In this document: positions 1 through 24,185 of the stretch, one piece after another
Position numbering within the stretch: position 1 is the stretch's first letter
How the letters are laid out: each line of letters opens with the position of its first letter
Origin: a virus
Strand: one strand, 5' to 3'
Virus record (IMG/VR): IMGVR_UViG_3300017740_000076
Location: 1-24,999 of that record
DNA: 24,999 bases
Translations under genes and position numbers: made by a program
The notes under the pieces: generated by a model
The model's input: only the letters and a program-made list of their open reading frames with translations
Told to the model about the DNA's origin: nothing
Database searches by the model: none

Positions 1-3000
1 AATTCTTTGGCGAAGGCAGACTTGGTGTGACTCACGGTTCGCTTAATATTACTACAGATGCCAACGGTAGAGTTGCAACTGCTGTGATTGCTGATGGCGG
101 TGCTGGATATCAATACGGTGATGTAGTCAGTGTAGCGGTTGGTACACTTGGTGGCAATGTGCAAAGTCAGAAACCATCTTTCTTTGTTGATGCAGCTGGA
201 TTTGGTTACAATGAAACTGAATTGATCGTTGACAACTCAAATGGTATTTCTACTGGAGATATCATACAAATCACTGAAGAAAGATTAGAAGTTGTCAGTG
301 TAACTGGAAATATCATTACAGTTATCAGAGGAGCTCAAAATACAGAAATTGTCGATCATTTAGATGACATTGCCGTAGAATTGGTCACAAAGACATATAG
401 ATTTACTAAAGACAGTGTTGTTAATTTTGGATCTAGTAATGCATATGTTGATAACTATGATCCATCTACGCAACAGCTTGATGTTTACTATGTAAATGAG
501 GGTGACCAGATTATTGCAGATAATTCTATTTTTGTAGATGAAAGCACTCCAACCAAGCAAGCACAGATTGATAGTGTTACTGACACGTCTCTCAGATTCA
601 GATTCCGTAAAGATGGTGAGTCTGAATGGTTTAAGAACATTAGTCTTGATATTCAAAGAACATATCGATACATCTTTGATACTAGTAGTCCTACCTTGGT
701 TGGTAGACATCTTAAGTTCTACGAGAATGTTTATAGAACTAGAAATCTTCTTCAGGCATTTGAGTCCATCGAAAAACCTGGATTCTCTGGTTCATACACT
801 TCTTTCCAGCTAGGTTACGGTATTCCTATTGACGGAACTAATTGGGAGCAAAAACCAGTTATTGCTGTTCCTCCTAAAATCTATTATGATGAACCCTTAA
901 GCAAAATTAATTCGGAAGATCAATTCTTTACTCTTGTAGAAGATCCATTTGCTGGTAAGCACGCTGTATTCTATGGCTTTGAATACGAATTTGCTTATAG
1001 ACTACCCAAGGCACCTCAGCAAGAAGGATTTACAAACGTTCAGTACTTTACAGATTCTCTGTATGCTATTGGTAGCATTAAGAACGTTAAAGTTATTAGT
1101 GGTGGTAAGAACTTCACATTACCCCCACAACTTCCTGGTGTCTTCTTGAATAAGAGGTTTAGAGGTGCATTTACTCCTTTAATCGAAGATGGCAAGATTA
1201 CTTCGGTAAACATTATTGATACGGGACTAAACTACTCCCAACCCAAGGTTTTACTTGAGAACACTGGTGGTGGCGCTAATGCTCAGTTCCGTGTTGAGCT
1301 GACTAATCAAGGTGCTGTTGGTCGTATTGTGCCTACAGAAGAAGGTTCTGGATATGGTCCTGATACTACTGTGAGACTATATGAGTCTGACGCAAAACTA
1401 TATGCTCACGGCGAGAATATTGGTAGGCTTGCCACTTTAGAGATTATTTCTTCTGGTAAAAACTTTAATAATGATCCATCATTGCTGCCACAGGTCAATC
1501 CTCCTATTGTGATGACTTTAAGAAACTTCCCTGATAGGGCATTCTTAAATGGTGAACAAATTACTCAGAGAGATGCCAATGGGAAGATGATCGCATTTGG
1601 TCGTGTTGACTATTGGATCAATGGTATGAACATTCTGCGAATTAAGCAGGTTCAGGGTAAATTTGATCAACGATATCCTCTTTATGGCGAAGCGCTTCGC
1701 AGCACAGCTGATATTCAGAAGATTTACGTTGCTAAGATTGATCCTGTTATTGGACCTACTAGCACATCGATTGGTAACTTCCAAACTGACCGTAGTAAGC
1801 TGTCTGCTGTGTCGCAGAAGATTCAAGATGGTATTTACTATCAAGATTATTCTTATGTGGTTAAATCCACCATTTCTATTAATGACTGGAGAGACTTTGT
1901 TAAGAAGTTCACTCACCCTGCAGGATTTAACCTGTTTGGTGAAGTTCTAATCGAATCTTTCGGTGATGCCGAGCAACCAGCAACTATTGACACTCCTCAG
2001 TCTGGCACTAAGGACAATGGTTTTGGTGCTGTCATTAGTATTATTGAACCTGGTGTTTTAGGAGTTACTACTAGTCATAAAGCTACGAGAATTACTCAAT
2101 CTCACGTCAGAGTTGATACATTCAGACAGCAGCGTGGTCTTGGCACTCTTAACTACAGTGAGCGTAACAATGTAGAGATCGAGGTATTTGACCTTGCCGT
2201 ATCTCCTGAATTCGATGGTGAGGTGCAAGTAGACGGTTCGGTTACTGGCACAAGAACCTTTACGCTGTTCAAAAAAGATATCAATGAACCGTTGGTGCCA
2301 TACAAAGCACAGCAATTGCTGGTAACTCTAGATGGTGTGCTGCAGGATCCCGATACTGCATATACTGTCTCTGGTAGTACAATTACATTTGCTGAAGCTC
2401 CTCTCGGACCATTTGTTGATGCTAAGACTGGCATTAATGTTCCTGGAGTTAATTTCTACGGTAAGTCAATTAAATTCCAAGACAATATTAACAATGACCG
2501 TTATATGCTTGAGGCAAATAATATTACCTCACAGTTTGATGGTACTAGTACTAATTTCGATCTCGGTATTGAAATTGTCAATGACGACCACGTATTCATC
2601 TCTTTGGATGGTGTTCTTCAAGAACCTGGAGTCGCATACAACCTTGTGGAAGGTGGTGCAGGCGAAGTTACCTTTACAGAACCTCCTAGACAAGTTGGTA
2701 AGATCCTAGAGCTGGATATTACTGATGCAACTAACTTCTTAGTTAATGATTTTGTTGTTGGACAGACATCTGGAGCACGTGGCGAGATTGTCGCTAAACG
2801 TTACTTTGTCGATCACAGATTCCTCAATGCTGCAGATCTATTAGCTGACAACAGTACAATTCTTGCTGAAGAAGCTGTTGGAATTTTAGATGATACCAGT
2901 AAGTTTGATGGATTCACTTATCCTGGTCTAGGTAGAAACCAGTGTATCACTGATCTCAAATCTGTTCTGAAAAATATTTCTAGAGATTTGCAACTTGGTG

Positions 3001-6000
3001 GCAATAGTAATACTTGGGATGCTGCTAAAGAGTATTTGCTCAATCCTGCTGACCCTAACTCGGATCTTAAGCATATTGAAGGTGAAGTTGAAGCTACACT
3101 ATGGGCGATGAAGTATTTTAAGGATATGTCTATCCTTACTATTCGTAATCACTTTGGTATTGGCAATCTCACTAGTCAACAACGTTTTGCTGATACGACG
3201 TTCAGTATGACACCTACAAATGCTCTTTATACAGCATCTAGCGGTGTCCTAGTCCTTACACTCCCTGGTCACGAACTGTCTTCTAGTGACAAAGTTGCAA
3301 TTGCAACTGATTCACTTGTATTTACTTGCGATAAGGATAGCAATCAAACGCAGCATAGCTATCCTCGCAGTACAGATCCTGCTGCAGGTGTTATTCTGTC
3401 TATTGTATCAATTTCTGGCGATGATGTTACTATAAATGTTGGTGCTTCACCAGCTGGTGAGCAATATAGTCATTCGTTTGTAAGTTCTTCTGCAAATAGC
3501 ATCGGTAAGTATAACGATGTTTACAATAAGACAAATGCTGTCGCAGACGAATTTATTGATAGCGCTAATCTATTAAATGCTAACCGTAACTTCATTGCTG
3601 AAGAAGCTGTCGCTATGATGCTTGCTGGTGGCGGAACGATTTCAGACCCTGCTTTCAATACTGCTGTATCGATTGTTTCTGCCACTGCAACAACTATTAC
3701 TGTCGATGTTGGCAAATCAGATTCTATAGATGCACATACTTTCGATAGTGCACTTGCCAATTCTGTTATCACTGGTGGTAACTATACTCATACATTGCAA
3801 GAAGTTGCTGCAAATTCAATACAAGTAACTTCTGGTCCTGCTTTAACTCCGACTGATGCTACTTACGATCCAGCAACTGGTGAGTTTGTAATGACAGTTG
3901 TTGGGCACACTCTTACGACTAGCAGTACAGTTACTATTGCAGATGACGCATTTATATTCAGATGCTCGATGGATCAGAATGCTACACCGCATAGTTATCC
4001 TCGTTCTACTGACCCTGCATCTGGACAGCAATTAGCAGTCACTAGTGTTACCACTGATACATTTACGGTTAATGTTGGTGTGTCTGCTGAAGTAACTTTC
4101 ACACCTACTAACGGTACCTATGATCCTCTGACTGGAATGATGATGCTGGATATCGGCACTCATACTCTTGCTCAAGGAACTAGCATCAGACTGTTGACAA
4201 ATGGTATTTCATTCACCTGTGATCTGGACAATTACACAGTAGCGAAGGCATATCCTCGTGCATCTTCTCCTGGAAGTTCTGATGATTGTTGCGATGATGT
4301 TAAGGATATGCTAAAAGCTATAGCTTGGAACTTACAATATGGTGGCAACAACAAAGTCTGGGATGCTGCAGAACTCTATGTCGATAGAGATGGATATCTG
4401 AATCATATTACCCAGAAAGTACCCGAAACCCTACAAGTATTTGCAAATGTCAAAACTCTCGCTGCTGATGTCATTCGCAACAACGTTATCACACCAGCTG
4501 GTACCCACGGAGTCACTCAGGTGTTTGATAACAGCATTACTGTTGAGACAAATGAGTGTGCATCTGTAGAATCCGCTATCGGTGTTTTGGTAGATTTGGT
4601 TGGTAATGCTATCCAAACTCCTAGCACATTTGAAGCAAACGTTGCAAGAACACTACCTTTAGTTTGGCCAACTGAGTTCAGCACCTTGACTCCAACTCGT
4701 GATTTGACAATCACTATAGATGCTGCTAATCCATATTGCCAACAGGTCGAATCTGCAGTTAATGTTCTTTTCAATATTGTCACTACAACAATTTCAGAAG
4801 CTGCATTTAACAATACCAATCATTTGCTGAATGTTGCACAGGACTTCCCAAATCCCAACAGAATTCAAGTTGAGATGACTAAGAAGGACTTCCTACAGGG
4901 TGAAGATATCCAGTCTGAAGCTTCTCTTCTTACGGCAACTACTCAAAGCGTATCTTCTATCAACCCTGGTATCCAGCAAAAATTCTTCGGATTCAAGCAA
5001 GGTAAGTATTACAAACTGGATTCTATTGAGTCTCAGTTTAATGATGCTCAAACTATCTTCGATTTGGAAAGAAGTGGCGTTCCTTTCTATTCAGAAAGAT
5101 CGCAAAATCTCGTTGTCATCCTGAATGGTGTTATGCAGGTCAACCGCGTAGCATATCGTGTGGAAGACAACCTTGTCGTATTTAATGAAGCTCCTGCCTT
5201 TGGTTCTGCTTGCTTCATTCTTTACTTCTATGGTTTGGACCCTGAGCGTGTTTTGATCGGTTATAATATCGAACCACCTGGCACATTTAAGAAGTTCTTT
5301 AAGTTAACTCTGGATCAACAGATTTTGCTACCTTTGGAAGGTGCTCAATGTTGGGTTTCTACAGAACCTGTAACTAACATTGTAAGAGAATATCCTTATT
5401 CGTTTGCACGGGGTAGAATTTATAAGCAAGCGTGGACTCCTGGTCAGCAGAATGTTCTTTTTGTGGAGGGTGTGACTGCACAGAAATCAAACTGGTTGAA
5501 TGGTACCTTAAGTGTTACTAGAGACAGAGGATCAACTGCTCCTATTATTGAGCTGCAAATTCTAGATGTTGAAGAGCAAGTCAATGAAGACTTTAGAGAA
5601 AAACTATTCAACAGACAGGATAGAATCAAGTCTAATCTCAGTCAGGGTGACTTAATCAAAATTGATGGCGAGGCAGAGACTCGTGGTATTGTGAGAGCTG
5701 CTAGAGATGCACTGGTCACTTCTGGTTATGATTCTGATACTTCTGGTATCGTGTCTTCTTTCTTTAGAAGTTACGAATATGAAGTTGTTCTTAACGTTGG
5801 TCCTTATTCTGGACAGATTGAGGGTTTTGGCGCTCAAGCAATTGCTAAAATCGACGCTGAAGTAAGATTCCACACTTTACAATCTTCTAGAACTGAAGGT
5901 GTGGAGTTCTTACCTGGTGACGAAGTTGTTCAATATCAAGATCAGAATGATACTTCTAGTCCTGTTATTTGGAGAGCAGTTGTCAAAGCATATGCTCCTA

Positions 6001-8102
6001 AAGATAAGGCAATTGAATTTAGAAGTGAATATATTGATGGCACTACTCCCGTTGTTTATACAGATCCCGACGTTAACACTTTCCGTACTGGAGAAAGAAT
6101 TTACGTTGAAGCTACACCTAGTACAAATGCTATCGCATTGCAGTACTTAGAACCTGGTGGTGTTAATCGTGTTGTCTTGACTAGAAGAGACAATTCTGCA
6201 TACTACGAATCTTTCAGAGAATGGAAGCAAGCAAATGTTTGGAACAAAGGTGAGAATTTATTAGGTAACGGATTCGTTCCTATGAATGCCAGTGCAAATA
6301 ATGAACCTGGGGAGTATGACTTTACATCTTCAATTTATGACGATCAACTAAATCCTCAGATCTCCAAAAATTATCGCGAACCTCCCGTGATGATCTTTAG
6401 ATCTTCACCTGTCACAGATTCTAATGGCGATTCTTTAGGTTCTCCTACTGGTGGTGGCGCTCGTGCTACTGCAATTGTTGTTCGTGGAGAAATTGTTGAT
6501 ACCGAGCTTATTTCTTCTGGTTCTGGTTATAAAGTTCCTCCTCAAATCCTCTTTACTAGAGGTTACTTTGTGTTCCGTAAGGATCCTCTGAGTGTTGCCA
6601 ATTTCACGACATTTGGTATTGAACCTCCGACTATTGACTCTCCTGTCGGTGTTCAAAGCTTCTTGCAAACCATCTTCAAAGGTGGCGATCGCACCCGTTG
6701 GACTCTGTTCAACTCCTACGCTCCTGCTGGTGATAACCTTGTATTTGGTAATGCTGGTGCACCGATCTATCAAGTTAAAAAATACTATGATGGTCGAGTA
6801 ATTATTCAGAAAATTCTGGATCTTACTAATAAGATGCATCCTCAGCCTGAGATCTACATCAATCTGGCACCAGAAGATGTTCGTTGCTATTGGAAGGAAA
6901 CTACAGTTCTGCAGTCTCAGATGACTGGTGGTGTACAAGGAATCTCTTGTGCACTTACTAAGTACAAGAAAACTGAGACTAAAGTTCAATATAATGCTGG
7001 TGTTATTGAAAAGAGAGCTTTCAATAATCCTAATCTGATTGGTTTTGACACTTACAACACGGGTTCTCTTGGACTGACTATCGGTTCGTTGGAGTCTATG
7101 AAGTTTGAAATTCAACCCCAATCTAATAATTCTATCGGACAGAATGGTTACTATACCGATTCTGCTGGTAGGCAGATTAATTATGTAATGGGTGATATGA
7201 ACCTTGACTTCTGGTCTAATTTGTATCCAAACCTTACGATTGGCGATTTCGAGAATCCCGATATCCTCAATTCTCAGGTATATGCTGAGGGAGATCAAAA
7301 CTACTTCCGTTATCAGCAAGGTTCCGAAATACATTTCAGAACTACCAGCAAAGCTATGATTCTTGATAATACCTTTGGGGATGATGTTCTGTTAGTAAAC
7401 AGTACGAAAGGATTCCCTGCATCTGGCGGTAAGTTAATTATTGCCGATGTAGCTGCGGATAAGAGAGAAGAAATGACTTACACTTCTTCCACATCGGATA
7501 GATTCTTAGGAGTCCAAAGATTGAATCCTTTGAGCACAGTGGAAGAAGGTTCCAGATTTGCCGCTATGACTAACACCAAACTTACGCAATATGTGAGTCT
7601 ATCTAACGGTGGTACTGGATTGAGTTACAATGGAGGATTTATTTCCGATGTTCAATATTACTTATTCTATGGCGGTAACGTTGGTAGCAATAGAATAATC
7701 CACTGGACTTTCAGTACAGCTAATGAGATTCAATCTTTCCAGAATCACAACACTATTACTGTTGAATATATACGAGGTACTGGATCTAATGGCGGTGAAT
7801 ATCCAGGGCAAGATTTAGAACTATGGTTCTGGTCTGCAAATACAAATTATGTAAAAGCAGGAAATGTTTGGTCCTCTGGTGATGCTGCTGGGGGAGATTG
7901 GAGCACAACTACATTGAATATCCCTGCTACTATCCAAACAGAAATTAATAATGGCAACGCATACCGAATGTACTTCCAGCAACTTAGTATTCAAGCAGGT
8001 GGTGCTGACTACTTCGGTCTCAGAACTTGGTGGCTTGATGACACTGACGGCGAACCCACATATCCAAAGGGAACAGTCGTGATGTCTGCGAATAAACTAT
8101 AA
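1..8102 (+). CDS. Giant modular virion structural protein, gp7 position, 5' truncated
   Basis: The frame is open from the first complete codon (position 3) with no stop before the TAA at 8100-8102, giving at least 2699 residues; the GTG at 27 is an internal valine codon, not a start. Numbering residues as position/3: G-x-GY beta motifs lie near 13-48, 357-510 and 2148-2190; a YRYIFDTSS...GRHLKF stretch near 219-240; LNGVLQ-type modules at 753-803, 841-896 and 1673-1744; a helical module at 936-1053; HxYPRxxDP modules at 1070-1147, 1282-1359 and 1367-1424; paired CxxVESA helices at 1517-1537 and 1576-1597. The last 165 or so residues are rich in tryptophan and aromatics and look like a terminal beta sandwich. 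The gene directly precedes gp8, where T4 has gene 7, so a baseplate wedge or rim role is inferred from position only; I see no direct similarity to T4 gp7. No signal peptide or membrane segment is visible. Confidence 0.85.
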   Translation, partial: FFGEGRLGVTHGSLNITTDANGRVATAVIADGGAGYQYGDVVSVAVGTLGGNVQSQKPSFFVDAAGFGYNETELIVDNSNGISTGDIIQITEERLEVVSVTGNIITVIRGAQNTEIVDHLDDIAVELVTKTYRFTKDSVVNFGSSNAYVDNYDPSTQQLDVYYVNEGDQIIADNSIFVDESTPTKQAQIDSVTDTSLRFRFRKDGESEWFKNISLDIQRTYRYIFDTSSPTLVGRHLKFYENVYRTRNLLQAFESIEKPGFSGSYTSFQLGYGIPIDGTNWEQKPVIAVPPKIYYDEPLSKINSEDQFFTLVEDPFAGKHAVFYGFEYEFAYRLPKAPQQEGFTNVQYFTDSLYAIGSIKNVKVISGGKNFTLPPQLPGVFLNKRFRGAFTPLIEDGKITSVNIIDTGLNYSQPKVLLENTGGGANAQFRVELTNQGAVGRIVPTEEGSGYGPDTTVRLYESDAKLYAHGENIGRLATLEIISSGKNFNNDPSLLPQVNPPIVMTLRNFPDRAFLNGEQITQRDANGKMIAFGRVDYWINGMNILRIKQVQGKFDQRYPLYGEALRSTADIQKIYVAKIDPVIGPTSTSIGNFQTDRSKLSAVSQKIQDGIYYQDYSYVVKSTISINDWRDFVKKFTHPAGFNLFGEVLIESFGDAEQPATIDTPQSGTKDNGFGAVISIIEPGVLGVTTSHKATRITQSHVRVDTFRQQRGLGTLNYSERNNVEIEVFDLAVSPEFDGEVQVDGSVTGTRTFTLFKKDINEPLVPYKAQQLLVTLDGVLQDPDTAYTVSGSTITFAEAPLGPFVDAKTGINVPGVNFYGKSIKFQDNINNDRYMLEANNITSQFDGTSTNFDLGIEIVNDDHVFISLDGVLQEPGVAYNLVEGGAGEVTFTEPPRQVGKILELDITDATNFLVNDFVVGQTSGARGEIVAKRYFVDHRFLNAADLLADNSTILAEEAVGILDDTSKFDGFTYPGLGRNQCITDLKSVLKNISRDLQLGGNSNTWDAAKEYLLNPADPNSDLKHIEGEVEATLWAMKYFKDMSILTIRNHFGIGNLTSQQRFADTTFSMTPTNALYTASSGVLVLTLPGHELSSSDKVAIATDSLVFTCDKDSNQTQHSYPRSTDPAAGVILSIVSISGDDVTINVGASPAGEQYSHSFVSSSANSIGKYNDVYNKTNAVADEFIDSANLLNANRNFIAEEAVAMMLAGGGTISDPAFNTAVSIVSATATTITVDVGKSDSIDAHTFDSALANSVITGGNYTHTLQEVAANSIQVTSGPALTPTDATYDPATGEFVMTVVGHTLTTSSTVTIADDAFIFRCSMDQNATPHSYPRSTDPASGQQLAVTSVTTDTFTVNVGVSAEVTFTPTNGTYDPLTGMMMLDIGTHTLAQGTSIRLLTNGISFTCDLDNYTVAKAYPRASSPGSSDDCCDDVKDMLKAIAWNLQYGGNNKVWDAAELYVDRDGYLNHITQKVPETLQVFANVKTLAADVIRNNVITPAGTHGVTQVFDNSITVETNECASVESAIGVLVDLVGNAIQTPSTFEANVARTLPLVWPTEFSTLTPTRDLTITIDAANPYCQQVESAVNVLFNIVTTTISEAAFNNTNHLLNVAQDFPNPNRIQVEMTKKDFLQGEDIQSEASLLTATTQSVSSINPGIQQKFFGFKQGKYYKLDSIESQFNDAQTIFDLERSGVPFYSERSQNLVVILNGVMQVNRVAYRVEDNLVVFNEAPAFGSACFILYFYGLDPERVLIGYNIEPPGTFKKFFKLTLDQQILLPLEGAQCWVSTEPVTNIVREYPYSFARGRIYKQAWTPGQQNVLFVEGVTAQKSNWLNGTLSVTRDRGSTAPIIELQILDVEEQVNEDFREKLFNRQDRIKSNLSQGDLIKIDGEAETRGIVRAARDALVTSGYDSDTSGIVSSFFRSYEYEVVLNVGPYSGQIEGFGAQAIAKIDAEVRFHTLQSSRTEGVEFLPGDEVVQYQDQNDTSSPVIWRAVVKAYAPKDKAIEFRSEYIDGTTPVVYTDPDVNTFRTGERIYVEATPSTNAIALQYLEPGGVNRVVLTRRDNSAYYESFREWKQANVWNKGENLLGNGFVPMNASANNEPGEYDFTSSIYDDQLNPQISKNYREPPVMIFRSSPVTDSNGDSLGSPTGGGARATAIVVRGEIVDTELISSGSGYKVPPQILFTRGYFVFRKDPLSVANFTTFGIEPPTIDSPVGVQSFLQTIFKGGDRTRWTLFNSYAPAGDNLVFGNAGAPIYQVKKYYDGRVIIQKILDLTNKMHPQPEIYINLAPEDVRCYWKETTVLQSQMTGGVQGISCALTKYKKTETKVQYNAGVIEKRAFNNPNLIGFDTYNTGSLGLTIGSLESMKFEIQPQSNNSIGQNGYYTDSAGRQINYVMGDMNLDFWSNLYPNLTIGDFENPDILNSQVYAEGDQNYFRYQQGSEIHFRTTSKAMILDNTFGDDVLLVNSTKGFPASGGKLIIADVAADKREEMTYTSSTSDRFLGVQRLNPLSTVEEGSRFAAMTNTKLTQYVSLSNGGTGLSYNGGFISDVQYYLFYGGNVGSNRIIHWTFSTANEIQSFQNHNTITVEYIRGTGSNGGEYPGQDLELWFWSANTNYVKAGNVWSSGDAAGGDWSTTTLNIPATIQTEINNGNAYRMYFQQLSIQAGGADYFGLRTWWLDDTDGEPTYPKGTVVMSANKL
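219..389 (+). repeat. GDxIxI...RG beta module, copy 1
   Basis: The encoded segment runs ELIVDNSNG, then TGDIIQI, EVVSV, ITVIRGAQNT and DHLDDIAVEL. It follows the pattern 'short strand, GD-I-I, re-evaluation strand, V-RG-Q-T, H-GD/D-V'. The same pattern recurs near the end of this gene (7380-7571) and inside the 214 aa protein (21123-21317). The pattern is read by eye; the domain has not been matched to a database. Confidence 0.5.
1071..1530 (+). repeat. Cluster of four G-x-GY type beta repeats
   Basis: Four consecutive units share the pattern 'G-x-I/V-x-x-x-x-I-x-x-x-G-x-N/G-Y/F': SIKNVKVISGGKNF, KITSVNIIDTGLNY, AVGRIVPTEEGSGY and RLATLEIISSGKNF. A GGGANAQ spacer lies between the second and third. 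Repeats of this kind (G-I-x-x-I-x-V-x-x-x-G-x-G-Y-x-x-x-P) are common in phage structural proteins. Other copies lie at the window start, at about 6444-6570, in gp8 (9070-9252) and in the 2749 aa protein (15916-16155). Confidence 0.6.
2259..2690 (+). repeat. Two tandem LNGVLQ-type modules
   Basis: Two adjacent modules occupy 2259-2411 (FTLFKKD...LLVTLDGVLQDPDTAYTV...ITFAEAP) and 2523-2690 (SQFDGTSTNFDL...VFISLDGVLQEPGVAY...VTFTEPP). Each holds a short FDG/F-x-L entry, a central hydrophobic strand ending in DGVLQ-P, an AY strand and a closing TF-x-E-P-P/AP. The module recurs at 5019-5234, twice in the 456 aa fibre and at the N-terminus of the last gene. Confidence 0.65.
2703..2801 (+). repeat. 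tSGA-type beta module in the giant gene
   Basis: This short unit reads NDFVVGQTSGARGEIVAK. The pattern is 'F-x-G/N-D-x-V-x-G-x-T-S-G-A-x-G-x-V'. It also appears in gp8 (TGNTSGATGKAGV) and several times in the 2749 aa protein (VGQTSGVKAFV, QGSISGATAVI, TGKTSGTKGVL). It sits directly before the helical module and may act as a linker or rod segment; this role is inference. Confidence 0.5.
2808..3161 (+). repeat. Helical FIAEEAV / GGN-WDAA module, intact copy
   Basis: The segment begins with FLNAADLLADN and ILAEEAV. It continues with a cysteine-containing helix (QCITDLKSVLKNISRDLQLGG), then NTWDAAKEYL, LKHIEGEVEATLWAMKYF and ILTIRNH. It is predicted to be almost entirely helical, unlike the beta-rich surroundings. 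A second copy lies downstream but is split into 3552-3656 and 4281-4487. I recall this type of segment from large structural proteins of marine phages; its function is not known to me. Confidence 0.6.
3210..4274 (+). repeat. Three HxYPRxxDP beta modules, the third truncated
   Basis: Copies lie at 3210-3443, 3846-4079 and 4101-4274. Each runs TPTxxxYxxxxG, a hydrophobic strand, GH-x-L, xxVxI, a strand with FTC or FRC followed by D, then (H/K)xYPR. The first two close with STDP, a beta strand pair and INVG/VNVG. Copy three has SFTCDLD and AYPRASSPG, then stops and runs straight into the second half of the helical module. Copies two and three are almost directly adjacent. The single cysteine in each copy is conserved. 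Confidence 0.65.
3552..3656 (+). repeat. Helical module copy 2, first half
   Basis: The segment FIDSANLLNANRNFIAEEAV followed by AMML...ISDPAF matches the first half of the intact helical module at 2808-3161 (AADLLADN, ILAEEAV). The matching second half does not follow. Beta modules follow instead, and the rest of the helical module resumes at 4281. The interruption spans about 624 bases. Confidence 0.55.
4281..4487 (+). repeat. Helical module copy 2, second half
   Basis: The segment DDCCDDVKDMLKAIAWNLQ, YGGNNKVWDAAELYV, YLNHITQKVPETLQVF and LAADVIRNNV aligns by eye with CITDLKSVLKNISRDLQ, GGNSNTWDAAKEYL, LKHIEGEVEATL and LTIRNH of the intact copy at 2808-3161. It opens with an unusual DDCCDD cluster at the junction with the truncated beta module. 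Confidence 0.55.
4551..4793 (+). repeat. Two CxxVESA helical repeats
   Basis: Two helices share a pattern: NECASVESAIGVLVDLVGNA (4551-4613) and YCQQVESAVNVLFNIVTTTI (from 4728 to 4793). Both have cysteine, then VESA, then VL, then a hydrophobic I/LV and a final A/T-I. They are separated by about 38 residues of extended, proline-containing sequence. Confidence 0.55.
5019..5234 (+). repeat. LNGVLQ-type module, third copy in the giant gene
   Basis: The segment contains SQFNDAQTIFDL, QNLVVILNGVMQVNRVAY and LVVFNEAP, ending FILYFYG. It follows the same order of elements as the modules at 2259-2690 and is most like the N-terminal module of the fibre starting at 24186 (LISLGGVMQEANVSY). Confidence 0.6.
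7380..7571 (+). repeat. GDxIxI...RG beta module, copy 2 (diverged)
   Basis: The segment reads DDVLLVNSTKGFP, GKLIIAD, REEMTYTS, FLGVQRLNPLST and EEGSRFAAM. It resembles copy 1 at 219-389 in order of elements (strand, GFP turn, I-I, E-M-T-Y strand, V-R/Q, G-S/D-V), but G-V-Q-R replaces V-I-R-G. It precedes the aromatic C-terminal region of the giant protein. Confidence 0.4.
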
Positions 8103-8157: not shown

Positions 8158-9978
8158 ATGTCTGCAATTATCACTGATCTTTTTAGAATTCATAATGCAC
8201 AGCAGTTCGTTGAGGCGCTGGCGGAACCCGACACTGCTTCCCCCTCAGAGGAAACAGCAGCTGAGTCTGGCACCCAACGTACTCGACTATACTTCTTTAT
8301 TGGACGCCCCCAAGAATGGCGTGCATATTTAGAACTATATGCTATCAATAACACTTTCCAGGAAGGCGAGATCGTCTACCAAGGTAGTTCTTACCCTGGT
8401 GGCGCTACCGTTTACGGCACGGTCGAAAAAGTGTTTCCCAATTCAGTCCTTCTCTCTGGCGTCAATGGCGCTTCGGGACAGAACTCCAACTTTGTTGCTG
8501 GAGTCGCTGTAACAGGTAATACTTCTGGTGCTACTGGTAAAGCTGGTGTATGGAGAACTGGTACAGAGAACACTCCTACACAACCTTTCGACTCGCAAGA
8601 AGAAAAGTTTGAGATCTTCGATGATATGATCTCACTCAAGCGTGTGAAAAAAGATGACGTGACCTTTGTGGTCAAGCGTTATAACTTCGGCGCTAACACT
8701 GTGTACGATATGTACAAGCCTGATTATAGCAGTGCTAAAACTTCTGCTACAGGTTCATCTTCATTGTTTGCTGCCACATTCTATGTGATGAACAGCAGCT
8801 ATGAGGTTTTCAAATGCATCTACAACGGTCAGACCCCTACCGATCCTAACGGTGTTGTTTCTGTAACAGAACCAACTAAAGTTCAGTCAATCTCTGGTAT
8901 TTTCATCGAACCTGAAGATGCTGGCAACCCTGGATTCCGTACGGATGGTAAGCGTCCATACGTTTGGAAGTATATGTACACCATCCCTACCGATAGTGTG
9001 CTGAAGTTCCTCTCCACTGACTTCCTTCCTATTGTGGAAGAAACTGCAGTTATTACTTCTGCTGTTGATGGTGCTATCGATAATATTCTTATTACTGATT
9101 CTGGTACCAACTATGACCCTGGTACCTACTATGCTCCTATTCAAGGTAATGGTAGTGCTGGTATTGCTAAACTAGTTGTTGATTCAGGTGCTATTGTCGA
9201 AGCAAGTCTTCAAGCTTCTGGTACAGGATACACATACGCTTCAATTAATTTGAGCGATGTCTATAGCGATGCTGCTCTCACAACCCCCTCTAACATCGAC
9301 GCTAACACCGATGCTACTGGTGGTGCCCTGGAAGTGATTATCCCCCCTCAAGGTGGACACGGAAAGGATCCTGTAGAGGAATTGGGTGGTAAGCGTGTGA
9401 TGATTAACACTCGCTTGACCTACGATGAAGGCGAAGGCGACTTCCCAACTGATAACGACTTCCGTCGTATCGGTTTGCTGCGCGACCCATATAACTACAA
9501 CTCTACCGATTTCGCTACTGCTGACAACCTGAGTGCAACTCCTGCACTTAAGCTGCAGAACCCATCTGGCGATTTCTTCGTTGACGAAGAAATTTCACAA
9601 ACTTATACCGATGGCAATGGCGATACAGTTGTTGCTAAAGCAACTGTAGTTTCTTGGAAGGGTACTGTTGACGGCGTAACCTACAACATCGTTAAGTACT
9701 TCCAGTCTCCTGACCGTCACACACATAACGGCGTTGTGTATGATTTCAGCAATGGTGCTGATACAGTTTCTGGCGGAACTTCGCTTTCTACTGCTACGGT
9801 AAATAGTACATATAATACTCCTGGTGGTCAGACTGACGGCGGTGTTATCTTTGCTTCTGGTCTCGCTAATCCCGAAATCGAAGGCAACTCTGGTGACATC
9901 ATCTATATTGAGAACCGTCGTGCAATTTCTCGTGCTTCTGACCAGATTGAAGACATTAAACTCGTTGTTGAGTTCTAA
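8158..9978 (+). CDS. 8: Baseplate wedge subunit gp8 (T4-like), enlarged
   Basis: The 606 aa product is the T4 gp8 homologue, a wedge protein that in T4 forms a dimer and helps hold gp10, gp7 and gp6 in the baseplate. The last 29 residues (SGDIIYIENRRAISRASDQI then EDIKLVVEF) match the T4 gp8 end (SGEMIYMENRP...DQTEEINILFTF). Residues 266-277, RPYVWKYMYTIP, match T4 GYVWEYLFEIP. The YVMNSSYEVFKCIYN segment matches the T4 region holding LVYRCLD. T4 gp8 is 334 aa; the extra length is largely repeat-type beta sequence near residues 67-135 (tSGA module) and 305-365 (G-x-GY modules). ATG at 8158 is the only sensible start and has no strong ribosome binding site. Arginine codons are mostly CGN, whereas the neighbouring giant genes favour AGA. 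The next gene follows after 18 bases. Confidence 0.92.
   Translation: MSAIITDLFRIHNAQQFVEALAEPDTASPSEETAAESGTQRTRLYFFIGRPQEWRAYLELYAINNTFQEGEIVYQGSSYPGGATVYGTVEKVFPNSVLLSGVNGASGQNSNFVAGVAVTGNTSGATGKAGVWRTGTENTPTQPFDSQEEKFEIFDDMISLKRVKKDDVTFVVKRYNFGANTVYDMYKPDYSSAKTSATGSSSLFAATFYVMNSSYEVFKCIYNGQTPTDPNGVVSVTEPTKVQSISGIFIEPEDAGNPGFRTDGKRPYVWKYMYTIPTDSVLKFLSTDFLPIVEETAVITSAVDGAIDNILITDSGTNYDPGTYYAPIQGNGSAGIAKLVVDSGAIVEASLQASGTGYTYASINLSDVYSDAALTTPSNIDANTDATGGALEVIIPPQGGHGKDPVEELGGKRVMINTRLTYDEGEGDFPTDNDFRRIGLLRDPYNYNSTDFATADNLSATPALKLQNPSGDFFVDEEISQTYTDGNGDTVVAKATVVSWKGTVDGVTYNIVKYFQSPDRHTHNGVVYDFSNGADTVSGGTSLSTATVNSTYNTPGGQTDGGVIFASGLANPEIEGNSGDIIYIENRRAISRASDQIEDIKLVVEF
8356..8562 (+). repeat. 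tSGA-type beta modules inserted in gp8
   Basis: Residues 67-135 of gp8 read FQEGEIVYQGSSYPGGATVY, then SVLLSGVNG, FVAGVAVTGNTSGATGKAGV. They match the repeated 'F-x-x-GE-x-V-x-G-x-T-S-G-A' element of the flanking giant proteins. T4 gp8, as I remember it, has no such segment between its N-terminal FGRSEPW strand (here FIGRPQEW) and the following conserved region. Confidence 0.5.
9070..9252 (+). repeat. G-x-GY beta modules inserted in gp8
   Basis: Residues 305-365 of gp8 contain AIDNILITDSGTNY and AIVEASLQASGTGYTYASIN separated by a GNGSAGIAKL strand. This is the two-unit form of the G-x-GY repeat found in the giant genes on both sides. It directly follows the conserved gp8 block that ends in FLPIVEE. 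Confidence 0.55.
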
Positions 9979-9996: not shown

Positions 9997-12900
9997 ATGC
10001 CACAAAACACTAACCTGAATAGATCCCCGTATTTTGACGATTTTGATACGGGGAAAAACTTCTATAGGATTCTGTTCAGACCTGGTTACTCAATCCAAGC
10101 GAGAGAGTTAACTCAGCTGCAGTCTATGCTGCAGGATCAGGTCGAACAAGTCGGCAATAGTATGTTCAAACAGGGTCAAATGGTGATCCCTGGCGAAGTC
10201 TCGTATTCTAATACGTATGACTATGTTAAGTTAAGTAGCGTCTCTCAGGTTGCACAAAACGTAAATGGCGAAATTAATTTCGTCAAATACAATATTTCTC
10301 AGCTGGTCGGCAAGATTCTTGTCGGTCAGACTTCTGGTGTTAAGGCATTTGTTGATAATCACGCTTTAGAAACTACAACAGACGCTGATACTATTTTTGT
10401 TAAGTATGTCAGTTCAGGTTCTGATAATACTGACGTTAGGTTTAGACAGGGCGAATCTCTCAAATTAGAAACTCCTACAACGGATAACGATCCGACTCTA
10501 GTTGTAGGTACAGATGGAATCAAACCAGCAGATACTACTGCTATGGGTTTTGGTTCTGCTGTAAACGTTCAGAAAGGCATTTACTTTATTAATGGACATT
10601 TTGTCCAGAACGAATCTCAAACTCTTATTCTAGAGAAATACAGTGCTATTTCTTCTTATAAGATTGGTTGGGATATTACAGAATCAATTGTCACTCCAGA
10701 AGACGATCCTTCGCTGAAGGATAACGCTCAGGGTTACTCTAACTATTCTGCACCTGGAGCTCATAGACTGAAGATTACTTTGAATCTTCAAAAGTTTGCT
10801 GTTGACGCTCCATCAAATAAAAACTTTGTTCAGCTTGTCTTCCTGGAAGAAGGTAAAATCCAGAGACAAATTACTCAAACTTCACCTAGTCAGATTGAAG
10901 AGATTCTGGCACGTAGAACTTATGACGAGTCTGGCGATTATATCGTAAAGAATTTTATTGCCGACCTTAAAGAATATTACAACGCTGATGGATCTGGTTA
11001 CTATGATGTCAATTCATCAACTGGTCTAGTCAACGGTTTATCTGAACTGGCAGCTGATGGAAAGTTTATTGTTGGCATCGGTCCTGGTAAAGCTTATGTT
11101 CGTGGTTACGAAGTAGAAAGTACAGATACTAAGTATCTCGAATTAGATAAAGCAAAAGATACTCAGAGTAGAGAAAATACCAGACTATATTCCACACCTT
11201 TGCCTACAGTTGGTATACGTGGAGTTCACGGTTCTGTTCCTATTAGTGCTACTTCTGATGGAGAATCTACACCATTTAAGAAAGCTAATTTTTATAGAAA
11301 ATTTATTGATTCTTATCTTGGCGATAATGGTTCCAAAAACAGTCAAGATACAGGCATTTTTGTTGCTAGCGATCTAAGAGGAACAACTTATAATACCGAT
11401 GCTGCAACTATGACAGTATGGGTATATCCTGGTGTCGATCCTGTCAATGGTGAGCCTATTGACCTTGCAACTAATACTACAGATATTGTTTACACCGACT
11501 TGAAGGTTGGCACTTCAGCATCTGTGTTCCACTTTAATGGCACCTCTTATGATGAGATTAAAGTTGTTGCCGCAAGATTTAATCAAAAATACAATACGGA
11601 TAGAGATAGAAACGTTCCTTGGAGCGAAGATAGTGCTACTGGTGGTATGAATGAATCTGGTTCGGAGCACGTTGTGCACGAACTGATTCTAAGAGGTCCT
11701 ATTGCAACTCTATACAGCATTCATCAATCTTACCAAGCACACGGTCCTGTAAAGCTGGGAGGTTCTGGTGGTGGCGCTAGTAATGGTATCTCTCTATATG
11801 GTAACAATACTGGTGCAACTTATTATGGTATGGTTCTAGACTATACTCTTCCAGTGCACCCTATCATTGGTAGAGCTATTGCAAGAGACTTCAAATTCCA
11901 AACAGTTCCTGTTGGATTTGATAAAACTCGTGGCGTTGTTGCTTCTAGTAATCAGCAAGACTCTACATTCACATTCAGTTATACCAACCCCATTCTTTTC
12001 ACCAAGATTGTTTTAACTGGTATCCACGCATTTGAAACTGGTTCTAATATCCAGGGTTCTATCTCTGGTGCCACTGCTGTTATCGAAGGTGGGTTGTCGG
12101 TTGGGCAAAATGATCCCGAGAATGCAACTTTATCTCATTCTAATACAATTGTACTATCGAATGTTATTGGAGAGTTTGAAGAGGGAGAAGAAATTTTTGA
12201 TATGGATGACAGTGCCAAAGCTGCTGTCATTGCTGTAGAAGGTCGTATTAGTCACTTCACTGTTCCTTATGGTGGTGAAAATTATTCTGATCAGATGGAG
12301 TTGAAAATTGGTCAGAGACAATATCGCGGTAACTACACTACTGTTAGAAGAGAGACTGCTGTTGACGGCATCGATGGTCAGCAGGATTATGTCCACTCTG
12401 TTACTTTCACCGAATTAGGTAGGAGAGAGATTTCTGATAAATTCCTCAGTCCTCCAATTGTTGAAGTTATTGATGTTGGTGGTGTACACAGTGCTAGCGA
12501 TCCAGATGCTTATGTAAAAGCATTCCTTTATAAGAATGTCATTCAAACGTTTGGTACGGAAGATCTTCGTTCCGTTGGAATGACACACGGTAATAGTTCT
12601 AGAACGTTCTCTGCAGATATTCAGTATGCAGATACCGATTATACAGAATTTAAAACTATCACCAACAACCTACAGTATTCTGGCAGAACAGATTGCGACT
12701 TTATTGAAGCTACTAACTATAGTGCACGTCCTGCAGATGAACTTAAAGAAGATGATTTAATTCAAATCACTGCTGATGGTGTTACGTATCGTTATGAAGT
12801 TGCGTATGCTTGCAATGCTACTACCGATACAGTTGCCAGAATTTATTTAAAACAGCGTCTCTTAGCTAACTTCGATTCTAATACTGTTTCTAAGATTCGT

Positions 12901-15900
12901 GCAAAAATTGAAAATTCTGGAAAATCAAGTCTAGTTCTTCCTCTGCCAAACAGTAAAATTTATTCGATTCTTTCGGATGATGCAAATACTGAGATTACTT
13001 ATTTCTCAAGAAAGCAATTTATTGAATCAGTTACTGTTGATGGTACCACAAACGAAATTACTATTGCTGCACAGCTTGACTTTGGTCAACAGCAATTTGC
13101 TCCATTTAATCAAAGCGATTATGTAATGGAGATCTATACTGCTGGTGCTACTACTACAAGATATGGCGGTGCTACTGGTGATCTAGTGAGAGAAGGAGAT
13201 ATTCTCTATATTGATCGTTCGATGATCTCGATCACTAGTGGTTCTGAGGGAAATACTGCTGGCACTATTGCCATCAAGCTTCCACCCGATTACTTCTATC
13301 AAGCAGGTGCTCTGAATCTGGCAGATATGAAGTTGAAAATCAGTTGTACTATTGAGACTGCAAACGCAAAACCAAAACTAAAAACATCTGTCAAGAAGAA
13401 AAGAATTTCTATTGCTTCGGATATCGATAACGATATTATCCCAATTAGAGGCGATGATTACGACAATCCAACTGGTCAGGTCAAGTCTTTCTCCGATGTA
13501 TACAAGTTGCGTTATGTCTATGAAGGGCAAGCTGGTATTGCACCGTCTGTTGATGAAGATGGAACTATTCTAGGTAACAGTGGAATTGATATTACAGATT
13601 ACTTCTTATTCGATGATGGTCAAAGAGATTCTTTGTATGACACATCTGCATTAATTAGAAAACCTGGTTTCAGAACTCCTACTGGTACCCTAGTTATTGG
13701 ATTTGATTATTTCAAGCATTCGGAAGGAGACTTCTTTGCAGTTGATTCTTATCTCCACGAGAACGGTGTTTCATATTCTGAAGTTCCCAAATTTACTTCT
13801 AATGTATATGGCAGCAAGTCTTTAGCAGATGTAATTGACTTCCGTCCTTTGGTTGGTACATCAGCATTTATTCCTGGTTATCTGAATGCCAGTGTGATGG
13901 ATCCATCATCCAATGTTTCTGAAGTGTTTACAAGTGGTGGTGTTACTGCAGCACTTCCTGCTGACACACAAAGCTCTGCCAGTATTCCATACACCTTTGC
14001 TTGTCAGTATGAATACTACGTTGACAGAATTGATACTATTTACTTGAAGAAAGACGGTAACTTTATTGTTAAAAAAGGTGCTGGTTCTAACGATCCTCAG
14101 TCTGCACAAACAATTGACGAAGCTATTAAGATCTTCAAGATTTACATTCCTGCGTTTACTGAAAATCTCAGAAAAATCAAAGTTTTCCCTGTGGAAAACA
14201 AGCGTTTTACAATGCGCGATATCTCCAAATTGGAGAAGAGAATCGAACGTGTCGAGAGATATACAATGCTGTCTATCTTAGAACAGTCAGCTCTTAACAC
14301 TCAAATTAAGGATGGTCAAACTGGTCTTGATAGATTTAAGTCTGGTTTTGCTGTCGATAACTTCGAGAACTTCAATCTCTCTAATATCAACAGCGTTGAT
14401 TATAAGTGCGCTCTTGATCTCACTCGTGGTTCGATGCGTCCCGAGTCTAAAGAGACTAGTGTTACTTTGCTTGAGCACGATCCAAATCCAACTTCTAGAC
14501 TTTTGTCTGGTTATGTGGTCAATAAAGGTATGGTTACTCTACCATTCACCACAAAAGTTCTCGCTCAAAACAACTTTGCGACAGAAACTATTCCTGTCAA
14601 TCCTTTCCTTATCTTTGCCTTTAAGGGAACTGCAGCTCTTTCTCCTAATGTCGATCCGTGGTTCGATGAGTATAGTCTGCCATCTTTGAATAATAACGAC
14701 AACCAGACATTAGATCCTCTGGAAGTTTATACCGATGGAGATGTTGCCCTATCTCAAATTCACGATGTTAGTAAGATCTCTATTCTTGGTAACGATTCCG
14801 AGTTTAGCAATGTCAATTCTCTAAGCTCTGATGCTCCTCAAACTGCAGAAGCTGAAGTTATTCAGTCTAAGATTACCAGTTCTTCTAATCTGGCATCTCA
14901 GAATACAGAGCTTCCTTTACAGCAAAGCAGTACTTCCATCGGAGAAAAAGTTCTTTCTACTTCATTCACTCTGTATGTGAAAGAGCAATATGTTGAGTTC
15001 CATCTTCGTAAGATGAAACCTAATACTAGATTGCATACTTTCTTGGATAATATCAATATCGGTGGGTATGTGGTACCAGATCGTAACTATTCTGGCATTC
15101 CTGGATCTTCCCTCAGGTCTTGGGGAGACAATATAGTAACAGATGATGCTGGAAATGCTTCTGGTATTATTCTAATTCCTTCAGGTAGAAAACCATCCTT
15201 AGGCACTTTCCACGAAGAAAACATCGAAGACTTGACTTTTGATGAGTCTGTTGGGCTTAAATTCCCTCTGGGCGTTAAGAAGATTAAGTTTACGAGCAGC
15301 AGCACTAACGGACATCATCCTCAATCATTTGCCAATGTTTCTTTCTTCGCAACTGCAATTAAAGAAACTGCTCCTAATGATATCATCGCTGTTGAAAATC
15401 TTAGCGATGATGAGAAAACAGATGGTACACAGTACACAGAGAATATCCTCAACCCAGAGGTTTCTGTTGTTGACCCACTAGCACAAACTTTCCGTGTTGA
15501 AAGCTTTAATGGTGGCGTATTTGCATCTTCTGTAAATATGTACTTCTCGGAAAAAGATCCCATCTTGCCAATTTCGGTGAAGTTAGTTGATACTATTGCT
15601 GGTAGACCTTCTAAAAATGTCATACCTGGTTCTGAAGTTGTAATAGATCCTAACACCTATCTTCGTGTTATTTGTAGTGGTGGACACACTCTCATTAAAA
15701 ATGAGATCATCGAAGGCGATACTTCTAACGCACAAGGTCCTTTAATCAAAGTTCTGGATTCTCAGAATACTCCTGTTCCTGAAGTCAATGGCAACTTCAA
15801 TCTGGCAACTACTCAAGTTTATACTTTAATCTTGGGAGACCACAACAAAGAGAGTTTCATAGCTGGCGAACCTCTGGTTATCACTTCACTGACTGTTGCT

Positions 15901-18521: not shown

Positions 18522-20063
18522 ATGGCGCTTACACGAATCAGGAGAACTGGTTTAAATGATGGGCTAGTCAGTGACGCCAAACTGGATAGTGGTGTAGGCA
18601 CCCAAGCGGTGACAACTTCCACTATCAGAAATGGCGCTGTTACTACCCTGAAGTTAGCAGATAACTCCATCACCACAGAAAAACTCAGTACCTCTGTAGG
18701 GCTTGAGGCAATTGACACTTCGGTGCTTAGAGACGGATCAGTTACTCCACCTAAGATCGATACCACTAGCACATTTAATTTTAACTCTGCTACTGTCGCA
18801 ACTTCTCTAAACGTTACTGGTAAAGTTTCTAGAGATGATGCAGTTGGAGTTGACGTTTCTGGTTCCGATATTACCATTGCAGGTGGTGCTGGTACTGGAT
18901 CTGCTACTGGTGGTTACATCAGACTCAAGACATCCAAAGCTAGCGGAACTAGTGGATCCTCTGCTAACAATCTTACAGATGCCATTGTTGTTACTGGAGA
19001 AGGTAAGGTAGGCATTGGAGTTGGTTCTCCTACAGAAGATCTCGAAGTTGCAAACAACGTTGTAATCAACGGAGAACTAACTGTTCTTGGCGGCACTACG
19101 ACAGTTTCCACAACCAACACTGTGATTGGTGATAAACTGATCGAACTTGGCAATGGTGTTGTTGGTTCTCCAGCTGGAGACAGTGGTATTGTATTTGAGC
19201 GTGGTAGTGAAGACAATGCATTCATCGGTTATGATGAATCAGAAGATAAATTTGCAATTGGAACTGGTAGCTTTACTGGTACAACTTCTGGCGATCTCGG
19301 TATTACCAGAGGAACTTTAATTGCTGATTTAGAAGCAGCTTCTATCGCAGTTGCTGGTGTTGGTTCTTCAGTTACTTTCGATGGTGCAGTAGTCACTATT
19401 GAACCAACTGGATCTAATGTTCCTTTGCTGAAGGTTGATCCCACTAACAATAAGATGGGTATCGGTCAAGAGCCCAACAATGCTCTTGCGCAAATCTTGC
19501 AAGTTCAGGGTACTGTCGGTGCTACTGCATTTATCGGTGATGGTAACGGTCTGACTAACCTGTCTGGTTTTACTGGAGCAGGCGATGGTACGGAATCCAT
19601 TCCTGGTATGTCATTCTTCCAAGATCAGGATAATGGTTTCTATAGACCATCTTCCGATCAAATGGGATTGTGTCTTGGTGGTGCTGAGAAAATTCTTTAT
19701 AATGATCAGGGAGATTCACTAGTCTTAACTCGTGATATTCACGGTCAAGACTGCGGACAAGTTGTTACAGCAACTATTCAAGCAGCCGTTATTGATACAT
19801 TCACAATTGCCGATTACTACAGCGGCAAGTATGTTGTTCAGGTTGTATCTGGTGCTTACGTTCAGGTCAAAGAAGTCCTGATTATGCACGATGGTACTGA
19901 CATTTTCATCGAAGAATATGCCACTATGACTTCTGGTGGTCTTAATGAAGGTGCACTAGGTACTATTACTGCACAGTATAATGGAGCAAACATCGAAGTT
20001 ATATTCACTCCGTCATACGCTACTAATACTGTCAAGTACTTCAGATCACTCATCAGATCCTGA
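18522..20063 (+). CDS. Tail fibre-like protein, 513 aa
   Basis: The product has the modular layout of a phage fibre. Residues 1-80 carry short repeats of the type AVTTxKLADNSITTEKLS (IRNGAVTTLKLADNSITTEK, VLRDGSVTPPKI). Residues 162-176 (KVGIGVGSPTEDLEV) and 311-328 (MGIGQEPNNALAQILQV) hold the GIG..P..L.V fibre motif. Residues 331-345 read TVGATAFIGDGNGLTNLSG, a common fibre element, followed by DNGFYRPSSDQMGL near 370-383. The last 95 residues (IDTFTIADYYSGKYVVQVVS to VKYFRSLIRS) look like a conserved C-terminal cap found in other marine phage fibres as I recall them. It probably trimerises and sits at the baseplate or whisker. The gene has its own late promoter and a TGA stop followed at once by the next late box. 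Confidence 0.8.
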   Translation: MALTRIRRTGLNDGLVSDAKLDSGVGTQAVTTSTIRNGAVTTLKLADNSITTEKLSTSVGLEAIDTSVLRDGSVTPPKIDTTSTFNFNSATVATSLNVTGKVSRDDAVGVDVSGSDITIAGGAGTGSATGGYIRLKTSKASGTSGSSANNLTDAIVVTGEGKVGIGVGSPTEDLEVANNVVINGELTVLGGTTTVSTTNTVIGDKLIELGNGVVGSPAGDSGIVFERGSEDNAFIGYDESEDKFAIGTGSFTGTTSGDLGITRGTLIADLEAASIAVAGVGSSVTFDGAVVTIEPTGSNVPLLKVDPTNNKMGIGQEPNNALAQILQVQGTVGATAFIGDGNGLTNLSGFTGAGDGTESIPGMSFFQDQDNGFYRPSSDQMGLCLGGAEKILYNDQGDSLVLTRDIHGQDCGQVVTATIQAAVIDTFTIADYYSGKYVVQVVSGAYVQVKEVLIMHDGTDIFIEEYATMTSGGLNEGALGTITAQYNGANIEVIFTPSYATNTVKYFRSLIRS

Positions 20064-20071
20064 TATAAATA
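20064..20071 (+). promoter_or_regulatory. T4-type late promoter box TATAAATA before the 217 aa gene
   Basis: An exact TATAAATA begins on the base after the TGA stop of the 513 aa fibre gene and ends 28 bases before the next ATG (20100). It probably drives the 217, 214 and 456 aa genes, which are separated by 6 bases and a 1-base overlap. Confidence 0.75.
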
Positions 20072-20099
20072 AACCCAGATACTAGTTGCCCTATCACAA

Positions 20100-20753
20100 A
20101 TGACTGTCAGAAACGTAGCGAAAAATTATACGTTTGAGCAACAGCGCCTTGAGATTAATGACATTGGCGCTGACAATGGTGATTTTTCTGGCAAGGTCAT
20201 TGGCCAAGCTGTGGTAAATAACCTTATTGCTCAAACAATTACCGATTGCTTACTTGAATTAGATACAGAGTTGGGACCTATCGCCTCTATCACTGGCGAA
20301 ATTCCTGCTAACGATAAAGATAACGTGGTGGAAGCAGTTAATTATATCACTGATACTATCATTAAATCGTTATCCCAGTTAACTACTGTGGATAAAACTA
20401 GTATTGTTAATGCTGTTAATGAACTAGATCAAGATGTAGGCGACTTGACATCTCTGTCTGCTAACATTGTAGACCATTCAAGCTTAGTTGCTGCCCTCAA
20501 CGAAACAAAAGATGTCATTGTTGGTGTTCTTTCTAACTTAAGTACAGTTTCCAAATCCAGTATCGTTGCTGCGATTAATGAAATTAAAGATACTACTATC
20601 GGAAACTTAAACAACCTCACTACACAAAATAAAGCAAACCTTATTAATGCTATTAACGAATTGCAAATTGAGGTAAACACTCTTGCTGCTCAGGTTGGTG
20701 TATCTGTGGAAGCAGGTCTCGACGCTACTGCTCTCGCTATCGCTTTAGGTTAA
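20100..20753 (+). CDS. Virion protein with five AINEL-type helical repeats
   Basis: The 217 aa product starts MTVRNVAKNYTFEQQRLEIN. It carries a series of about 26-residue repeats, each ending in an amphipathic helix: VVEAVNYI (76-83), SIVNAVNEL (101-109), SLVAALNET (128-136), SIVAAINEI (154-162) and NLINAINEL (180-188). Repeats of the type 'L-T-T-x-x-K-x-S-I-V-x-A-I-N-E-L' are known from phage fibres, where they are thought to form helical bundle segments. The first copy is the most diverged. The N-terminal 50 residues have no repeats and may be the docking part. There is no clear ribosome binding site. It was not matched to a named T4 protein. Confidence 0.75.
   Translation: MTVRNVAKNYTFEQQRLEINDIGADNGDFSGKVIGQAVVNNLIAQTITDCLLELDTELGPIASITGEIPANDKDNVVEAVNYITDTIIKSLSQLTTVDKTSIVNAVNELDQDVGDLTSLSANIVDHSSLVAALNETKDVIVGVLSNLSTVSKSSIVAAINEIKDTTIGNLNNLTTQNKANLINAINELQIEVNTLAAQVGVSVEAGLDATALAIALG
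20268..20669 (+). repeat. Five in-protein helical repeats, about 26 aa each
   Basis: Anchors VVEAVNYI, SIVNAVNEL, SLVAALNET, SIVAAINEI and NLINAINEL are spaced 25, 27, 26 and 26 residues apart. DNA identity between copies is low by eye, so the repetition is old at the protein level. Confidence 0.7.
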
Positions 20754-20759
20754 TAAAAA

Positions 20760-22774: not shown

Positions 22775-22777
22775 ATA
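22771..22777 (+). promoter_or_regulatory. Possible weak late promoter CTAAATA
   Basis: CTAAATA overlaps the TAA stop of the 456 aa gene and lies 21 bases before the next ATG. It differs from TATAAATA in the first part but keeps the TAAATA core, and CTAAATA-type boxes are known in T4-like cyanophages. It may start the 125 and 328 aa pair. Confidence 0.4.
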
Positions 22778-22779
22778 TC

Positions 22780-22787
22780 AAGGAGGA
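22780..22787 (+). promoter_or_regulatory. Strong ribosome binding site AAGGAGGA
   Basis: AAGGAGGA lies 11 bases before the ATG at 22799. It is the longest match to the 16S tail consensus in the window, suggesting high translation of the 125 aa protein. Confidence 0.7.
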
Positions 22788-22798
22788 TACAATATACA

Positions 22799-24163: not shown

Positions 24164-24171
24164 CATAAATA
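24164..24171 (+). promoter_or_regulatory. Late promoter-like box CATAAATA before the last gene
   Basis: CATAAATA is one base off the TATAAATA consensus, begins directly after the TAA stop of the glycine-rich gene, and ends 14 bases before the ATG at 24186. A start about six bases after the box would leave a leader of only about eight bases. Confidence 0.6.
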
Positions 24172-24185
24172 TTTTTTAAAGACAG

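Follow-up and report, generated by a model that had tools for sequence, protein, structure and literature searches.

The IMG/VR virus record IMGVR_UViG_3300017740_000076, analysed here as one stretch of 24,999 bases (the window), carries a giant open reading frame (ORF) for a virion structural protein (positions 3 to 8102, on the plus strand like all the features below; 2699 amino acids, with the 5' end outside the window), in which a helical module is found in two copies. We consider it likely that this module is a truncated phycobiliprotein-like globin domain, that it is a repeated building block of the giant baseplate and tail proteins of cyanophages, and that in the second copy of the window two beta-cassette units take the place of the loop between helices B and E, immediately ahead of the helix bearing the bilin-type cysteine.

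Predicted fold and sequence relationships of the helical module

The first copy (2808-3161, with a conserved cysteine codon at 2943-2945) had been recognised as an intact helical module in a first-pass annotation based on the sequence alone, and is confirmed as such. From its template-free AlphaFold2 model (predicted local distance difference test, pLDDT, 85.5; predicted template modelling score, pTM, 0.77), a Foldseek search retrieved phycobiliproteins in rows 1-46, with globin-coupled sensors coming next. In VIA-align, nearly all of the best 50 matches were phycobiliproteins (Z 10.2-11.6, 2.2-3.0 Å, 98-109 residues), the best of them reaching Z 11.6 with 2.2 Å over 107 amino acids, and the matched part corresponds mostly to residues 33-148 of the phycobiliprotein chain (beta chains). 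The globin-like helical core (A, B, E, F, and G) is present in the predicted fold. The N-terminal helices X and Y, by which alpha and beta chains pair, are missing, the module starting at phycobiliprotein residue 33, and its flanks are occupied by beta or other modules. From model and sequence together, the helical module is predicted to be a phycobiliprotein-like globin domain made of the A-B-E-F-G core without the X and Y helices, a nature that the first-pass annotation had missed.

Single-sequence searches of the region against Pfam, NCBIfam, and PDB gave nothing useful. A profile built from six modules had weak matches among all PDB sequences, nearly all of them phycobiliproteins, and with a profile of 57 modules the top match was a phycoerythrin alpha chain (E-value 2.7e-4), about 57 of the 60 best rows being phycobiliproteins and three being unrelated helical proteins. 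When the 57 modules were scanned singly, 20 of them matched the Pfam family PF00502 (best E-value 1.5e-5), every other family being matched by two at most. In the opposite direction, a scan of whole phage records with PF00502 hits the giant ORFs; a single copy passes the curated cut-off once (24.5 versus 22.2 bits), and others pass it only with the scores of their neighbours added. Moreover, hhalign aligned the module profile with the phycobiliprotein profile with a probability of 95%, an E-value of 2.7e-8, and a score of 50, against scores of at most 25 for 100 column shuffles and 15 for the reversed profile. Finally, among 12 whole cyanobacterial genomes, 35 of the 36 places matched by the module profile at E <= 0.1 were phycobiliproteins.

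An invariant asparagine lies between helices A and B, as in phycobiliproteins, and a near-invariant cysteine aligns with the central bilin-attachment cysteine (Cys84-type, at the start of helix E), with an aspartate three residues later. Of 122 module representatives, about 102 have this C-x-x-D pattern and 38 the fuller C-x-R-D; the two window copies read C-I-T-D and C-C-D-D, with Cys and Asp present and the Arg at C+2 missing in both. The phage modules differ from the phycobiliproteins (PF00502; phycoerythrin, phycocyanin, and allophycocyanin chains) in several respects: they measure about 105-120 amino acids, possess neither the X and Y helices nor the C-terminal end, and mostly lack the Arg that belongs to the Cys84/Arg86/Asp87 set of phycobiliproteins, and their B-E loop is shortened. 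In addition, they form repeats within giant virion proteins, and this loop can house 1-11 beta cassettes.

A second copy interrupted by beta cassettes

In the second copy, FIDSANLLNANRNFIAEEAV lies at 3552 and onwards and DDCCDDVKDML at 4281 and onwards (CCDDV itself from 4287), and all the peptides quoted at the outset are found in frame, at the coordinates given, within one uninterrupted ORF. Hidden Markov models (HMMs) and structure prediction delimit an N-terminal half (helices A and B) at 3540-3623, ending in ...EEAVAMML, and, with VIA-align, a C-terminal half (helices E to G, DCCDDV...) at 4284-4490, whose bilin-type cysteine codon lies at 4287-4289. The gap between them had been read as two HxYPRxxDP beta modules. 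An amount of two units is correct, while two complete cassettes had to be rejected: comparison with relatives and structural modelling give the C-terminal half of a cassette (AGGGTISDPAFN..., 3624-3764, end approximate), one full cassette bearing HSYPRSTDP and predicted to be a small beta barrel (3774-4088), and the N-terminal half of a cassette, cut at AYPRASSPG (4092-4274), that is, the two units in a permuted phase. A further HSYPRSTDP cassette is located between the two helical copies (3201-3450, end approximate) and is missing in three relatives (L010-L012). The DDCCDD sequence at the last junction, formerly considered unusual, is not anomalous: its first cysteine is the one conserved in the module, where unsplit copies read NC-I-DD and this one reads DC-C-DD.

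Both halves score with the module HMMs (independent E-value about 5e-9 for the N-terminal and about 1e-23 for the C-terminal half, obtained on the identical sequence in L003), so the split copy is not due to chance. A one-off misassembly is rejected as well, since the region recurs with 100% identity in three IMG/VR contigs that come from other metagenomes (L002-L004). Furthermore, the ratio of non-synonymous to synonymous substitution rates (dN/dS) against the relative L005 is 0.07 for 3540-3623 and 0.10 for 4284-4490, with 0.18-0.23 for the parts of the insert, and both helical halves are therefore still under strong purifying selection.

The AlphaFold2 model of 3540-4535 (mean pLDDT 80.6, pTM 0.53) has helices at residues 3-14 and 16-29, strands over residues 43-238, and helices at 246-267, 271-278, and 294-312, so that the helices of the intact copy reappear on both sides of the beta region. 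In VIA-align, one phycoerythrin beta chain was matched over residues 1..332 of this model (Z 10.4, 2.7 Å, 122 residues), and because the match spans both halves they are predicted to pack as one helical domain, in line with the original proposal. Within the insert, weak PilZ- and split-barrel-like VIA-align matches of the full cassette (model residues 79-183; Z 5-6) suggest a small barrel of one of these kinds. The flanking half-cassettes together may resemble domain 2 of EF-Tu and, judging from the VIA-align ranges 36-221 and 79-183, would close into one barrel around the full cassette. A Foldseek search with the split model was led by beta-domain matches with a probability of at most 0.12 and was set aside as noise.

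On the 3' side of the split module, at 4560-4860, the two further stretches NECASVESAIGVLVDLV and PYCQQVESAVNVLFNIV have the appearance of a repeated helix with a cysteine at its start; they are perhaps degenerate half-modules without the Asp.

Unsplit relatives and recurrence of the insert

At the orthologous place in IMG/VR relatives the second copy occurs in several states. It is split in the window and in L002-L006, split with one further unit in L007 and L009, and unsplit in L008, where a beta cassette lies between the helical copies, as well as in L010-L012, where two adjacent helical copies are both unsplit. The unsplit orthologues have a loop of 14-16 residues, reading ...MML-ANPANTGFTIPNGNVN-CIDDV, at the place where the window reads ...MML-AGGGTISDP[...]AYPRASSPGSSD-DCCDDV; in the window, 221 residues thus stand in place of a loop of about 16, the beta cassettes that split the copy amounting to about 216. 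The L010 contig, which is unsplit and comes from one record with L093, shares 91% identity with the window in its upstream flank. The unsplit orthologues and the one-domain model support the earlier idea of a beta cassette inserted within an existing domain, with a domain-in-domain architecture as the result.

The HMMs of the two module halves were also run on the long ORFs of the collected loci. Among the 284 distinct pairs of N- and C-terminal halves, the linker measures 10-39 residues in 242 and 125-1191 residues in 42, so that, as among the orthologues, the spacing is far from being the same in every relative. The 22 distinct long insert lengths fit a period of about 106.5 amino acids (residual 0.06 versus 0.24 for random lengths, none of 2000 being as good) and span 1 to 11 whole units. 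Contigs whose flanks are nearly identical differ in insert length by whole units (for example 975/1191, 754/970, and 755/868). On a module tree from which the insert was removed, seven changes are required to explain the split state, of which well-supported branches force at least four, and inserts in the same loop are present in at least four module lineages; the B-E loop is therefore a recurrent insertion site. Both this recurrence and the counting of the insert in whole units had escaped the first-pass annotation. Computation thus shows that cassettes enter and leave this loop as whole units of about 106.5 residues and, as far as the model goes, that the globin-like domain of the split copy is discontinuous, with a beta insert, counted in units, in one of its loops. 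A continuous domain within a surface loop of a discontinuous one is what nested domain insertions generally look like; the window-type insert differs in being a variable-copy array at a recurrent site, whose end units are seemingly split cassette halves.

Two styles of junction were noted: a clean full cassette following QYPSL.INGG (L061, L063, and L067; linker 125-127) and the permuted style of the window, with the C-terminal half first and the N-terminal half last. Their existence suggests independent insertion events.

Alternative readings and the bilin question

Several points weigh against the reading set out above. Taken alone, the intact copy of the window has no PF00502 match. De novo helical proteins appear at E-values of 0.002-0.007 in the PDB search with the 57-module profile, the alignment of module and phycobiliprotein sequences is confident over helices A, B, and E only (about 60 positions), and the Foldseek E-values of the intact copy are weak, 0.08 and up. 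VIA-align Z-scores below 13 can arise from an arrangement common in helical folds, and a photocobilin bundle also matches the intact copy (Z 10.9). The modules lack the B-E loop residues that contribute to bilin retention in true phycobiliproteins. As to the split copy, its pTM is only 0.53 and the five models vary. Split and unsplit orthologues are intermingled in both flank trees, with different cassette numbers between near-identical flanks, and the trees do not polarise the direction (insertion versus loss) at the window site. Finally, the baseplate location and the role in host contact derive from gene order and annotation.

The same architecture could be built on a small helical bundle of unrelated origin, whose globin-like arrangement would be convergent and whose N..C..D pattern would be coincidental. 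The low identity to phycobiliproteins in the structural alignments (10-20%), the weak Foldseek E-values, and the non-phycobiliprotein helical proteins within the same match lists speak for such convergence. We regard it as improbable, since independent sequence methods, applied in both directions, pick out phycobiliproteins almost exclusively, three features (C-x-x-D, the PGG loop, and the conserved Asn that separates helix A from helix B) lie at matching positions, and the domain is confined to phages of cyanobacteria.

A further proposal would add to the phycobiliprotein-like reading rather than exclude it: the modules would bind bilin at the conserved cysteine, served by phage bilin reductases or CpeT-type proteins, and the baseplate or tail would be a chromoprotein. 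The frequencies of C-x-x-D and of the full C-x-R-D given above favour it, as does the scarcity of cysteine in the giant ORF (only 12 in 2699 residues). The function of pcyA and pebS in cyanophages has been termed a mystery (PMC3037559). Among 17 module-bearing records, a bilin reductase is found in 7, CpeT in 10, and either of them in 14, which also counts in favour of the proposal. The co-occurrence is not diagnostic, and no link of the C-x-R-D modules with bilin genes is claimed, the records being too few and both traits common in cyanophages. On the other side, the bilin-contacting segment of the B-E loop is shortened in the modules, the Arg is missing from both window copies, and bilin genes are patchy where modules are everywhere. 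Coloured cyanophage virions, moreover, are not known. Bilin binding is possible but doubtful, the bilin-holding loop being shortened and the Arg usually missing, and the conserved pair of Cys and Asp may be structural and inherited. Equally doubtful is a more specific scenario, in which cyanophages took a host phycobiliprotein, cut it down to the bilin-holding globin core, and multiplied it in baseplate and tail proteins, some C-x-R-D copies still carrying bilin made by phage HO1, PebS, or PcyA. If this were true, the virion would be a chromoprotein and virion assembly would be one of the uses of the phage bilin genes; the insert of beta cassettes, which adjoins the bilin site, would then modify those copies.

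That the split copy is a degenerate relic, whose halves no longer fold together in what is merely a linker of beta modules, is very unlikely: model confidence does fall at the junctions (residues 240-244 below 50) and the pTM is moderate, but purifying selection acts on both halves, the conserved Cys and Asp are retained in the listed split copies, and the split model aligns as one domain across the insert.

Genomic context and distribution

The giant ORF matches phrog_4406 (E-value 2e-196), phrog_701, and phrog_18802, all cyanophage families of virion structural proteins. Directly downstream, a gp8-like baseplate wedge ORF (8158-9978; phrog_438, E-value 6e-162) is followed by a second giant ORF of 2749 amino acids (9997-18246; phrog_358, a family listed without known function), VrlC-like by gene order. 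In Prochlorococcus phage P-HM2 the order is gp6-gp7-gp8-VrlC, and the relative of the window giant ORF is annotated there as gp7. The window ORF has the gp8-like gene on its 3' side, the upstream side being beyond the window, and is probably the cyanophage counterpart of the gp7-type baseplate wedge protein. Like the T4-type gp7, it adjoins gp8 (a gp8-like ORF in the window; in P-HM2 the relative stands between gp6 and gp8); it differs in being several times longer, with cyanophage-specific repeats, and in showing no sequence match to solved gp7, since neither flank retrieved a gp7 chain from the PDB with phmmer, a weak, single-sequence search. The PHROG families 701, 18802, 4406, 5342, and 4527 (cyanophage virion structural or tail fiber proteins) hold the same modules, the window protein being a member; they have no domain description, and the phycobiliprotein relation and the nested insert are unrecorded there.

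In P-HM2, a PF00502 match (NC_015284.1, 82973-83161; E-value 2.4e-4) falls in a large ORF of 3682 amino acids other than the gp7-type gene, and the domain may therefore occur in several structural proteins of one phage. In the window, several small ORFs of tail-fibre-like character follow one another over 18522-24998; they have short segments in common, at the N terminus and in repeats, and include a glycine-rich protein at 23177-24163.

In a collection of 50,697 phage records, two different modules matched 356 and 347 records, all named Synechococcus, Prochlorococcus, or cyanophage save one "Marine" record. In a search of predicted viral structures, those matches that bear a name come from Synechococcus phages and from uncultured phages, after which the scores collapse. 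In phage S-PM2, 16 transfer RNA (tRNA) genes are annotated inside a module-bearing giant tail gene (L253, 11587-22926; NC_006820.1, 165928-177267). ARAGORN found none of the 16 there and the frame is open across 3,792 codons, so the tRNA coordinates look misplaced. In a chemostat study, mutations of S-PM2d are reported to have arisen under host pressure in very large hypothetical and short-tail-fibre proteins (PMC9910659).

Origin, role, and significance

The domain would descend from a cyanobacterial phycobiliprotein gene, and the globin core would be a structural brick of baseplate wedge or tail fibre proteins. It may anchor a protruding beta arm on the baseplate rim, with the beta arrays meeting the host surface. 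Unequal or homologous recombination between cassette repeats would alter the number of cassettes and hence the length of the arm, and arm length and sequence would tune the contact with the host surface. The role of the module in the baseplate is most likely structural or one of host contact.

Searches of an open-access library, with subscription papers and preprints outside their scope, turned up no account of a phycobiliprotein-like domain among the virion proteins of phages. Neither the fold nor domain insertion as an idea is new; what appears new, as far as can be checked, is the combination and its place. The fold of a light-harvesting protein used as a repeated brick of phage baseplates and tails is apparently undescribed, and the module is practically restricted to phages of organisms that make light-harvesting pigment proteins. 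The finding offers a function-first lead on large cyanophage structural proteins without domain annotation, and the resemblance gives a concrete test of the old question of the purpose of phage-encoded bilin enzymes. Moreover, an insert that recurs in one loop and is counted in units makes a clean natural system in which the origin and variation of nested domains can be studied.

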